A program made the translations under genes and the position numbers. Positions 3,410 to 20,588 of a DNA stretch of 41,609 nucleotides are shown here, piece after piece (positions within the stretch are counted from its first letter, which is position 1; each line of letters starts with the position of its first letter). The stretch is from Thermomucor indicae-seudaticae (taxonomy: Eukaryota; Mucoromycota; Mucoromycetes; Mucorales; Lichtheimiaceae), in NCBI GenBank assembly GCA_000787465.1, contig JSYX01000298.1, forward strand, positions 1 through 41,609, read 5' to 3'. Under the pieces are notes generated by a model. The model did not search any database, was not told where the DNA came from, and was given only the letters and a program-made list of their open reading frames with translations.

Positions 3410-3590
3410 TTTCGGATTATGCCGGCATTACACAGCTATGCATTGTTATGCTGTGGATACCAGTAGTCTCCCCGATGGCAAGCGAGAGCGGTGAGACCTG
3501 GCGGAAAAGATTAGCTTAAATAAGTCGAGCGAAGTGGTTCGACATTATAGTCGTTAAGCTATGATCTTCTGACGCTCTTCCTTGATTGGA
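3410..3590 (-). pseudogene. Truncated U2 snRNA copy, inverted
   Basis: Read on the minus strand, this matches the intact U2 gene (3817-4012) from its stem II region to its 3' hairpin: GACTATAATGTYGAACC, TTTTCCGCCAGGTCTCACCG, CCATCGGGGAG, GGTATCCACAGC and AATGCATAGCTGTG all occur in both. The 5' part is missing. From the shared CCAATC upstream motif to the GACTATAATG motif there are only about 30 bases here, against about 120 in the intact gene. The TATA box, the U6-pairing region and the branch-site recognition sequence are therefore gone. The GCCAG/CTGGC stem of the intact gene is broken here (CTCGC replaces CTGGC), as is the stem closing the 3' hairpin. I infer a non-functional copy produced by inverted duplication and then a deletion of about 90 bp. 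Confidence 0.8.
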
Positions 3591-3598
3591 CAGCGCAT

Positions 3599-3740
3599 AC
3601 AGTACCCGCGCGATATATCGATATTTGATATTCTCGATATGTTCAATCACGGATCCGCTTTTTCCAGGCGTATGTCCACTTGATATAACGATCGCATTTT
3701 TTTCGTCACGGACCCTATCGTTATATCGCGCGGGTACTGT
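3599..3740. repeat. Inverted repeat between the two U2 copies
   Basis: Arms at 3599-3617 and 3722-3740 are perfect reverse complements of 19 bp (core ACAGTACCCGCGCGATATA), followed outward by a degenerate CCAATC motif. Each arm is upstream of a U2 copy in the same relative orientation. It is either a snRNA promoter element or the remaining inner part of the inverted duplication. The GC-rich core flanked by A/T resembles a factor-binding site, but that is inference. Confidence 0.7.
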
Positions 3741-3778
3741 ACAGTGTTCCAATCGGTATATATCTGGGTACCAAGAGG

Positions 3779-3786: not shown

Positions 3787-3816
3787 GGCGGTCGATTTGG
3801 GGACTTTGCGAACAGC

Positions 3817-4012
3817 ATCCTCTGAGGCCTTTTGGCTAAGATCAAGTGTGGTATCTGTTCTTTACAGTTTAATGACTATAATGTTGAACCACTTCGTTCG
3901 ACTTGTTTAACCTAAACTTTTCCGCCAGGTCTCACCGCACTGGCTTGCCATCGGGGAGTCTACTGGTATCCACAGCCTGACAATGCATAGCTGTGTGATG
4001 CTGGCAGACCCA
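3817..4012 (+). ncRNA. U2 spliceosomal snRNA
   Basis: U2 snRNA pairs with the intron branch site and with U6 in the spliceosome. The 5' half is almost identical to U2 of other eukaryotes: GGCCTTTTGGCTAAGATCAA followed by TATCTGTTCTT. Downstream are a stem II region, a GCCAG/CTGGC stem around 3926-3945, and a 3' hairpin with ACAGC/GCTGT inside a GG(A)GTCT/AGACCC closing stem that ends near 4012. Its length of about 196 nt fits the family. Two things are odd. The branch-site recognition element reads GTGGTA (3848-3853) instead of GTAGTA, a single A-to-G change at 3850. The presumed Sm site (AAACTTTTCC, 3914-3923) departs from AUUUUUG. The 5' end is placed by comparison with other U2 RNAs and the 3' end by the closing stem. 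Confidence 0.93.
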
Positions 4013-5606: not shown

Positions 5607-8578
5607 ATGTCTCTGCAAAATAACATACCTCCAATGAATGGTGTGAACCACCGACCGCCGCCATCCCAACAACAACAGCATCAGCAAGGACTCGGACCAC
5701 AACACGGATTGCCTAACATAGAATCTGTGCGAAGGGCTTACCGAACAGCCTTAACGGAATTGACGTTCAATAGCAAGCCTATAATTACAAATCTGACCAT
5801 CATGGCGCAAGAAAATCAACATGCCGCAAACGTCATTGTCCGGGAGATCGAGCAACGGTTAAGAAGTGTAAGTAATAGACTGGTATACTTTATAAAAAAA
5901 GAAAGGGTCGTCGAGACTCCAAAGCACACTTTGGGAACATGTGGGTTGGCTTTGGTGCTCGGGTAAAGACTGGCTTCGACAACCACCAGCCGAAAGATGT
6001 ACTATTTACTGTGCATCTTCGCTTCGTTGTTTTCGGCTATCCGACAACCGCAGCTTTGCTTCGCTCGTCATCGTCATCATCATCTATTGTACATAATAAA
6101 ATCGATACGACGCTCTGTGTATTCGTTTTTCTGTTTCTTCTATTATTACTCCTCCTCCGCAGTACTTCTCCTTTGCCCTAATTCACAAAGCAACTTCTGC
6201 ATTTCCCTTTCTTTTTCTATTTTCTTTTTTTACGAAAAAGAGTGCTTTCTTTATCCGGGTTTGTGATATAGTGAGCATGGCATTAACATTTCTTTCCTAT
6301 TTTCTTTTATGCAGAATGCTCCTGACCAGAAGTTGCCGGTTCTCTACTTAATTGATTCGATCTGTAAGAACGTCGGAGGAATATACATTAGTAACTTTGC
6401 AAGAAACATTGTATCGACCTTCCTGGATGCCTACAAGCTGACGGATCCGCAAACAAGGCGTAGCTTTGAGCGCTTATTACAAACATGGAAAAACGGCATG
6501 CCAGACGGAAGCCCTGTATATCAACGCCACATCATTGAAACTATCGAGCGTTCGCTCAAGTATATTCATGAACGTGAAGCACAATCGCAGCAAAGGTTAC
6601 ACCCACATCAACAAAAACAGCAAGCAATGTCCCCCTTACCTCAAGGTCGATATCCGCCAACTTCTGCATCACCAACCGCATCCCGCAATCAGCAGATACA
6701 CGTTAATCCCAATTTCGTACCGAGGGTATGTGATGTGCTTTGAGAAATTTTGAGACCTGTCATGCTCATTATGATTCTTTCGATCTAGCACGACAAACGT
6801 GATCCACGCGGACTACATGCATACCCTTCTCCAGTTACAGAACCACGAGCAGCAGATCGACCTACTTCTGTATCAGCACCGCCAGTTCAGGTGAGTAAAT
6901 TATGACACTGCTCCCTAGGAAAGATGGTAACATCTCGCTAGTTATCGCATCCCACTCAGCAACCTCAGTCCAACGATGTCCTTTCAACTTTGCAATCTCT
7001 TCTTCCAGCACAAACTGCTGCTCAAGGCCCAGTCGGTACAACTGATCCGATATCGCAGATATTGTCGCAGGTAAGTCCTTAACTTCTGAATGCGTCAAAG
7101 CCCATGTCCATTGATAAATTTGTTTCACAGATTCAAGCTATTCTCCCAGCATTACCTGCTGCACAGTCGATGGCAATCCAACAATATCTCTCACAGATCC
7201 TAGGCAATAGCGCAACAATACCTACAAATCCAAGTCCAATGGCTTTCACATCTGGTGTCTCTGCTCCCATCTCGAACGCGGTATCTTCACCTGCACTTGC
7301 AGTTTCCACACCGACCATAGCATCCGCAGCAGCAGTTCCTGTTCAAACGCCTATGGTATCTTCTGGCATGCCCGTTGATGGCCTGGCGCGTTTGTCACAT
7401 CCCGTAACCTCTACCCCTTCACCCGTAATACCAGCTCCAGTACTGAGTTCTAACCCTCCGCCAGCACCAGTCAACACGGCCGAGCTGCTCAAAGGTTTAA
7501 CATCCCTAGGCATACTGAATCCGACCGGTGGCAAACCATCAACTAGTACACCAAGCTCTCAAACCACGGCACAGGAACCGTCCTTGACTTTAAACAGCTT
7601 TGGACCGTTCCGTCTGGACAGCAAGGACTTGCAAATGTGTGTATTACTAGATCGTGATACAGGTTTTATTAGTTCAGTTCATGCTCATTTTACTTTCTTT
7701 TTCTTCTTTCCTTGTGATTTGTATAAAAAAGAGTGCGTCCGGGCGCAATTGAGCTTTTGTATTCGGGTCTGCCGCTGCAGTGCAAACAATGCGGCTTCCG
7801 GTACCCGAAAACAAACGAAGGTCAAGTCAAAATGGATGCCCATCTGGATTCACACTTTAGGCAGAACAGGCGCATGAAGGAACGAGTTAAGCGCGGCTTA
7901 TCAAGATCATGGTTTGTCACTGAGGATGAATGGATAAGAGGTTCTGGTGGAGAAATGACCAGCCAACAAGGTAAAAGAGCCGGAACTCAGTCTTCTATCC
8001 ATTTCTTTGATCCACTGATACGTAGATATGTCTCTTTGAAAACAAAAAAAGCACCGGCGTTCCTTAATGACCAGAGTACTGGCAACTCGAGTCAAGATAC
8101 CTTACAGCCTACGGCAGGTGCAAGTTCAAGCGGCGTGAATCCTGAAGAGCACATGGTGGTTATGCCCAATGAAGAGCGAAAATCATGCCCCATTTGTGGT
8201 GAGCGGTTTGTAGATTTCTGGAACGACGATGAAGAAGAATGGATGTACAAGAATGCAATCATTGTAAACGGCGTGGTAAGATTTAAAACCACCATGACGG
8301 TCGCTAGAATGGTCACTCAATTGTACGTTAGATTTATCACGCGACGTGCCATGCCGATGCTATAACAAGTGGTGCCTTAGCAGCAGACAAAGAAGAGACA
8401 GAGGACGACGAGAAGCCTATCCAGGGTGTCAAGCGCAAGGCCGAGGATGTTGGCGAGGTAAAGTGTCGATTTAGTAGATATGTTGCTCGGCTGTTTATTG
8501 ACAAACCTTTTTTCACAGATGAGCCAGAAGGAAGATATTAAAGCAGCACGAAGAGATGCATATAGTGAAATCAAATAA
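5607..8578 (+). CDS. PCF11: Pcf11, pre-mRNA cleavage complex subunit
   Basis: Pcf11 couples 3' end cleavage and termination by binding the RNA polymerase II C-terminal domain. Eight exons can be joined: 5607-5867, 6315-6725, 6789-6890, 6942-7070, 7131 to about 7640, about 7731-8275, 8332-8457 and 8519-8578. After a Gln-rich start comes the CTD-interacting domain (residues about 35-160), with [16 protein letters not shown] and [17 protein letters not shown] as diagnostic stretches. A low-complexity Gln/Pro/Ser/Thr middle follows. The C-terminal half has the two zinc-binding motifs of the family: [10 protein letters not shown]...MDAHLDSHF, and CPICGERF...(spliced) [10 protein letters not shown]. 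The end reads [10 protein letters not shown]. The donor near 7638 and acceptor near 7731 have two possible pairings that keep frame. It converges with the RNF220-like gene, 145 bp away. Confidence 0.95.
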
Positions 8579-19846: not shown

Positions 19847-20588
19847 TTACTGCTTGCCAGCAGCCTACAATAGATAGCACATCGTCAGTCAACATAACCA
19901 ACTTCTATTCCTGCTGCACGCGCACACACTGACCTTCTCGGCCTTCTTAGCCTTCTTGGCCTCCTTGCTCTTGGCAATGGCAGCCTGACGGGCAGCAGCA
20001 CGAACATCGGCACTCTCGTTACGCTTGGCCCGGATCTCTTCCCAGGTCATACCAACAATGGCACGCTCGTGCTTGACGGTACGGCGCGTACGTCTCTTGG
20101 TGACGACTTCACTAGCACCCTTCTTGTTCAGGCGACGGTAGATTTGAGTCCAGCGGATCTTGCGGGGGTTAATGCGCTGAAGGAAGTACGACTCGGCCTT
20201 GCCGTTGATGAAACGGAAGGTCTAAAATTGGCAAAGACAATGTTGTGTGAGTCCTATTAAGCCCGATGTGATATCCAATGATGCCGCATCCCGCAAATTG
20301 TCTGCCAACACATTCTCTCTCTCTCTGTCTCGCCGAGCCGTATATGAAAAACCACTTACTCTAGAGTAAAGAGGTCATGAGTAATGACGTGTCAGAGCAG
20401 TACACGTTTGCGTTTTTCCTTACCTGCTGTCGCTACGAACGTAAATTTTGCCCTTGGCAGGGTAGATCTTGTAGCCAGAGTAGGAGCAAACCTCAAGCCT
20501 ATCGTTATCATGTTAGCCTTATCCATCCATCCTTCCCCTGTCTTCCTTCAAATGCCCATCGTGTTGGGGGAACGACATCGTACTTCAT
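19847..20588 (-). CDS. RPL24: Ribosomal protein eL24 (60S subunit)
   Basis: eL24 is a structural protein of the large ribosomal subunit. The protein begins MKLEVCSYSGYKIYPAKGKI-YVRSDSR, then TFRFINGKAESYFLQRINP, RTRRTVKHERAIVGMTWEEI and a Lys/Ala-rich tail ending KAEKAAGKQ, clearly the eL24 family. Exons: 20588-20584 (ATGAA only), 20498-20424, a single nucleotide at 20360, one starting at 20221, and a last short exon (AAGKQ) ending in TAA at 19849-19847. Exon 20498-20424 ends two bases into a codon, and the exon at 20221 starts at the first base of a codon, so exactly one extra base is needed. That base is supplied by an A at 20360, between a perfect acceptor and a perfect donor. Flanking introns are 20583-20499, 20423-20361, 20359-20222 and one with donor GTCAGT in the C-terminal region. 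It is divergent from PAN2. Confidence 0.95.
20360..20360 (-). other. Predicted single-nucleotide exon of eL24
   Basis: On the minus strand the context is TTTACTCTAG|A|GTAAGTGG: a pyrimidine-rich acceptor, one base, then a consensus donor. It completes an Arg codon (AG+A) between AGC (Ser) and ACC (Thr), giving SDSRTFRF, the spacing of eL24 in other eukaryotes. It splits an otherwise 202-bp interval into introns of 63 bp and 138 bp, both GT-AG. Confidence 0.78.

Follow-up and report, generated by a model that had tools for sequence, protein, structure and literature searches.

How is a reading frame maintained across a junction that lacks one base? This question arises at the gene for ribosomal protein eL24 on the minus strand of a 41,609-nucleotide stretch of DNA from Thermomucor indicae-seudaticae, here called the window (contig C259; assembly of 24.8 Mb in 735 contigs). 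Exon 2 of this gene stops on AG, two bases into a codon, and the conserved exon 3 has to be read from its first base. The first-pass annotation, which described this mismatch with coordinates that all hold, proposed that the missing base is supplied by a lone A at 20360, i.e. by an exon of one nucleotide. When the exons of Table 1 are joined with this A, an open frame of 128 amino acids results. The product contains the Ribosomal_L24e domain (PF01246; Pfam 4.7e-30 for the window copy and 3.4e-29 for a paralog), and the window protein matches four solved eL24 chains with alignments shown over the whole length, with no gap across the junction, in agreement with the spacing that had been expected for eL24. 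As detailed below, the A is very probably a constitutive one-nucleotide exon, to which we assign a probability of about 0.92 from the comparison of genomic sequences and protein models.

Table 1. Predicted structure of the eL24 gene in the window (splice-site scores in the feature column)
Feature	Position	Strand	Basis
First coding exon, ATGAA, 5 coding nt	20584..20588	-	joined CDS open, matches eL24
Intron after MK, 85 nt, GTACGA..GATAG	20499..20583	-	sequence, joined CDS, site scores
Exon 2, ends ..GACAGCAG, two bases into Arg27 codon	20424..20498	-	sequence, joined CDS
Intron i, 63 nt, phase 2, GTAAGG..CTCTAG; donor 10.3, acceptor 8.4	20361..20423	-	joined CDS, site scores
Putative one-nucleotide exon (A), completes Arg27 codon AGA as its third base	20360..20360	-	frame enumeration; same in paralog
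Intron ii, 138 nt, phase 0, GTAAGT..TTTTAG; donor 8.5, acceptor 1.6	20222..20359	-	joined CDS, scores; codon boundary common to RLP24-like intron
Exon 3, TFRFINGK.. to ..KAEK, opens ACC TTC CGT	19934..20221	-	joined CDS
Last intron, 69 nt, GTCAGT..TTGTAG	19865..19933	-	joined CDS, site scores
Last exon, AAGKQ + stop	19847..19864	-	joined CDS

The need for an additional base follows from the frame itself. Past the first donor the frame reads AGG TAA, and the codon ahead of ACC is the TAG of the acceptor, so that neither flanking exon can be extended. Script enumeration of GT/GC-AG introns that leave both exons whole gave 0 single-intron solutions in the window and 0 in the paralog. Splice sites were scored with a matrix built from 11 other introns of this genome, a small set whose scores serve as a guide only. 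On this scale, the A of the window stands between the best acceptor of the gap (8.4; next 3.1) and its second-best donor (8.5; next 3.4), the best donor being that of intron i; the two flanking sites named in the first-pass annotation thus rank first among the acceptors and first among the donors that remain, and they lie one base apart. In the paralog, the acceptor of intron i is the best of its gap (4.2), yet every reference acceptor scores at least 5.0; the donor GTAAGA (7.2) ties with another GT (AAG/GTCCGT, 7.2). The acceptors of intron ii score low in both copies (1.6 in the window and 1.8 in the paralog; reference minimum 5.0). Both copies present AG before and GT after the A in a splice-site context, with a weaker acceptor in the paralog, and in both the base is required by the frame. 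Chance was assessed with 20,000 dinucleotide shuffles per gap, in which a lone A followed by a GTRAG donor, with both introns of at least 40 nt, was found in 0.325% of cases for the 202-nt gap of the window and in 0.055% for the 124-nt gap of the paralog. When the A is skipped in silico, each copy runs into a stop at codon 58, and mis-splicing would for this reason be costly.

The strongest evidence comes from this second eL24 gene (C463:3437-3724 and upstream), since both of the eL24 copies found in the genome (2/2) carry the lone A. The paralog consists of an ATGAA exon, an exon 2 ending in GACAGCAG, a 59-nt intron (GTAAAG..GAATTAG), the A in the context TAG-A-GTAAGA, a 64-nt intron (GTAAGA..ATTTAG) and an exon 3 opening ACA TTC CGC. 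Coding sequences of the two copies differ by dN 0.09 and dS 0.855 (NG86, first 122 codons), a contrast that indicates constraint on eL24, and their introns resemble each other no better than expected at random (scores at least as high in 227 and in 914 of 1000 shuffles). A tree of the exon-3 part was built from 51 rows, two from this genome plus 49 drawn from the 155 proteins described below (P0024, which has no anchor, was left out). It places the two copies as sisters (100/98) within Mucorales (97/88), with Phascolomyces, Zychaea and Fennellomyces nearest to the window copy at weak support (93/73); the best eL24 matches among those listed are 81% identical. Because the paralogs are sisters, they would have inherited one event, not two, and so one ancestral arrangement appears to have outlived both the duplication and a full turnover of intron sequence. 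Given the presence of this arrangement in the paralog, the A is very unlikely to stem from chance or from a sequencing error. In both copies ATGAA is also the sole coding content of the first coding exon (paralog locus L003, 4002-3998, minus strand), and this exon is seemingly absent from several public Mucorales models, which start for example with RLEICSF or NRLEICSF.

Introns i and ii are two ordinary short U2-type introns, of 63 and 138 nt, and each would be recognised by intron definition. They would be removed one after the other, leaving the A to complete the Arg27 codon between Ser26 and Thr28. AG is the end of exon 2 and of intron i alike. The intron ii donor accordingly has the context AGA/GTAAGT whether or not intron i has been removed, and the junction should therefore tolerate either splicing order. 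The two sites that meet at the junction would hardly be occupied simultaneously. We infer the use of these sites and the order of their splicing from this layout. The first-pass annotation had also offered a recursive splice step that leaves one base behind; this would have the same anatomy under a name given by splicing order, and the sequence is compatible with either order.

Public protein models of other species provide a wider view of the junction. The survey covers protein models only, namely 155 proteins among the matches listed, assigned to groups from organism names. Among them, 19 of 67 models of Mucorales and Umbelopsidales have an intact junction, against 84 of 88 others (Fisher p 9.6e-20, a descriptive value, since the rows are related and annotation pipelines differ). 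By group, the intact models among the matches listed are 19/61 for Mucorales, 0/6 for Umbelopsidales, 16/16 for Mortierellomycotina, 2/2 for Glomeromycotina, 1/1 for Calcarisporiella, 5/6 for Zoopagomycota/Basidiobolus, 20/20 for chytrid-like fungi, 9/11 for Dikarya, 9/9 for animals and 22/23 for unnamed or unplaced entries; the broken unplaced row (P0087) matches an Umbelopsis model at 96% identity across 73% of it. A further 69 proteins among the matches listed are all intact (69/69; 67 by script and 2 by eye, with KIFP for KIYP); the query of this search was itself intact, which biases the matches towards intact proteins. One scan each of bacterial/archaeal contigs and of viral contigs, made to detect DNA of other species present as contamination, yielded no relative.

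The way in which 48 of the 67 Mucorales and Umbelopsidales models listed are broken is informative. Eleven of the 67 (counted by eye) lose six residues, as in KTY/TFRF, as if the GT of a Val codon had served as a donor joined to the phase-0 acceptor, a join that the window and the paralog both permit. Among the broken Mucorales models, 18 retain VRxDS, and eight of these then read R-V-[SRC] (three from Mucor, two from Rhizopus stolonifer, and one each from Rhizomucor, Absidia and Lichtheimia). A Val directly after the Arg cannot come from reading past the first donor, because this puts a T after AGG. The R-V-[SRC] insertions are compatible with a single base finishing the Arg codon and a GT donor coming next, as with GTAAGT, GTAAGA or GTATGT, all three of which count among the usual donors. 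Read-through of intron ii would yield RVSG in the window and RVRI in the paralog, and the letters RVRI also occur in Absidia and Rhizopus stolonifer models. The other ten of the 18 are without R-V: two read R-Y, as would be expected from read-through of a first donor GTAC, four read S and four are otherwise different. In three species, intact and broken models share the same 70 residues (Phascolomyces articulosus P0002/P0025, Gongronella butleri P0009/P0033 and Thamnidium elegans P0021/P0096). The six-residue skip also occurs outside the group, in Thamnocephalis (P0103) and Saitozyma (P0139), and for this reason model failure alone is not specific; these two genes may hide a similar intron layout. 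The 19 intact models among the 61 of Mucorales listed could reflect either a one-nucleotide exon correctly carried or loss of the introns. Taken as a pattern, the breakage suggests a spread of the lone exon beyond this genome.

Several other explanations of the mismatch have to be weighed against these data. The gap might be a single non-canonical intron (20423-20222) that leaves a G in the mRNA because it ends at TTTTA (GT..TA) or starts at TAAGG, which would give codon AGG and an unchanged protein. The arithmetic works in both copies through a G common to both ends, at the price of non-canonical ends; the reading would leave unexplained why introns that are unlike in all else retain the block TAG-A-GTAAG in both copies, and the R-V-[SRC] insertions of eight Mucorales models do not follow from it, so that we regard it as very unlikely. 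Even less probable is a longer micro-exon (4, 7, 10 nt and so on) that restores the frame. Enumeration of frame-preserving exons between 1 and 60 nt long, with introns of at least 40 nt, gave nine options in the window and two in the paralog, the lone A included. A consensus-like donor accompanies the lone A only (4/4 positions in the window and 3/4 in the paralog); the eight longer options of the window reach 1/4 and the single one of the paralog 2/4, and they add residues inside a conserved stretch, with no option common to both copies. A single canonical intron might instead cut into an exon; one running from a donor in the Val22 codon to ACC (KIY/TFRF without VRSDSR) would preserve the frame in both copies. 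If exon residues may be lost and exon 3 ends in frame, the window allows 22 such solutions and the paralog 31, and the form without VRSDSR is the one displayed by the eleven shortened models described above. Its donors score -1.8 in the window and -3.7 in the paralog against a reference minimum of 6.3 (11 donors), and it loses residues that are present in the 84 intact models outside the group and in the solved chains shown; the best-scoring solution of this kind keeps the true first donor and drops 37 residues. Trimming is accordingly scarcely credible.

The loss of an exon base by sequencing error or in a pseudogene, with an A placed suitably by chance, would mimic the phase mismatch, and a one-base error in an exon had been named in the first-pass annotation as a finding that could overturn the proposal. 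It is contradicted by the same mismatch with the same remedy in a diverged second gene, and the rarity of a suitable A in shuffled gaps, the constraint on the coding sequence and the trouble of Mucorales models at the same place all stand against it; we consider it barely conceivable. A different proposal, which adds to the one-nucleotide exon and does not oppose it, is that of a regulatory switch, in which inclusion of the A gives eL24 and its skipping gives the stop at codon 58 followed by decay, thereby tuning supply. That stop is common to both copies; it is, however, predicted from sequence alone, and many frame-shifting skips would have the same effect, which makes such a switch rather unlikely. 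Of the canonical readings found, the one-nucleotide exon alone retains the conserved residues while using good donors in both copies. The proposal of a true one-nucleotide exon is supported in this respect and by the frequent failure of Mucorales models at the junction, as it predicts.

The origin of the two introns can be approached through a related gene. A search of the genome with PF01246 found the two eL24 genes and one more place, on contig C165, which we take to be an RLP24-like gene. Its junction, read by eye, is AAG/GTAAAC..GGTAG/ACC TTT CGA TTC, with a phase-0 intron of 59 nt (NDSK/TFRF; C165:54670-54612, minus strand, locus L010), and this intron lies at the codon boundary homologous to that of eL24 intron ii. 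The common position suggests that intron ii is very old. Because the RLP24-like gene has its phase-0 intron exactly where intron ii lies, intron i, one base upstream, is probably newer, although in a single genome the agreement could be a coincidence. Intron i would then have arisen by insertion between AG and A. Earlier literature on intron positions in eL24 was searched for, and none was found. For the age of the arrangement, we infer with some preference a scenario in which the exon is at least as old as the common ancestor of Mucorales and Umbelopsidales, was created when an intron was inserted one base upstream of the ancient phase-0 intron shared with RLP24, and has since been spliced accurately, passing unnoticed as annotation programs rarely model such an exon.

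One-base exons were described in the first-pass annotation as extremely rare, with one reported in Arabidopsis; they are in fact better known. In plants, such exons have been demonstrated in APC11 by cDNA and reporter constructs (PMC4674806) and in VPS55 by RNA-seq and RT-PCR (PMC8831610), and they are conserved across land plants (PMC4674806, PMC8831610). As in eL24, one base lies between AG and a GT donor, the frame needs this base and annotation misses it (PMC4674806, PMC8831610). The APC11 exon is also an A, and intron definition with stepwise removal has been proposed for it (PMC4674806). Unlike these plant cases, eL24 is a fungal ribosomal protein gene and its exon is predicted here from sequence. 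In Fusarium, the exon of CYP621A is called by its authors the first of one nucleotide in a fungal gene (PMC12940212). It shares with eL24 a phase mismatch in a conserved motif and database models that are nearly all wrong, and it is common to orthologs; in contrast to eL24, the gene encodes a P450 rarely expressed according to the authors, the exon is a G and sequencing reads support it (PMC12940212). The words Mucor, ribosomal and stwintron are absent from the main text of that paper (PMC12940212). The eL24 exon differs in lying in a ribosomal protein gene, in being an A and in occurring in two paralogs. Fusarium and the fungus studied here belong to different fungal phyla.

Related splicing systems delimit the case further. 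In [D1,2] stwintrons, two U2 introns of fungi meet at a donor and are removed sequentially, as is proposed for eL24; the internal intron of a stwintron splits the donor between bases 1 and 2 (PMC5639578). Recursive splicing at RS-exons resembles eL24 in that a first splice brings a new donor to the upstream exon, and differs from it in that one base of eL24 stays in the predicted mRNA (PMC6224609). Both eL24 introns have whole GT donors, with the A ahead of the second, which separates them from [D1,2] stwintrons; the order AG-A-GT and the need of the frame for the base separate the junction from a zero-length recursive (ratchet) site. An exon of one base is also reported for mitochondrial cox1 of placozoans (PMC5436844). 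Such a mitochondrial exon is not handled by the nuclear spliceosome. As judged by titles and the beginnings of abstracts, the literature searched yielded no such exon for Mucoromycota and none for a ribosomal protein gene. The eL24 exon joins a known class of one-nucleotide exons, and is the first that we found in a ribosomal protein gene.

Other features of the window deserve mention. It carries a gene for U2 spliceosomal RNA at 3815-4010 on the plus strand (Rfam RF00004, 94.6 bits, model positions 1-192 of 192), an inverted partial U2 copy of 141 nt at 3420-3560 (90% complementary to 3866-4006) and, between the two, a 26-nt inverted repeat at 3598-3741 with 96% complementarity and arms 92 nt apart. 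At 5607-8578 on the plus strand lies a gene of 712 amino acids and seven introns, presumably PCF11-like, which was used as a splice-site reference.

Ribosomal protein genes are usually among the most expressed gene classes. If the reading proposed here is true, the smallest possible exon lies in a housekeeping gene that needs efficient splicing, which suggests that intron definition alone handles an exon of one nucleotide. The case is notable for the gene concerned, for its likely age and for the ease with which it can be tested. The breakage of eL24 models at this place in Mucorales and Umbelopsidales is likely to be a systematic annotation error. Two paralogs, and probably many species, would offer natural replicates for the order of intron removal and for the gain of an intron one base from another.
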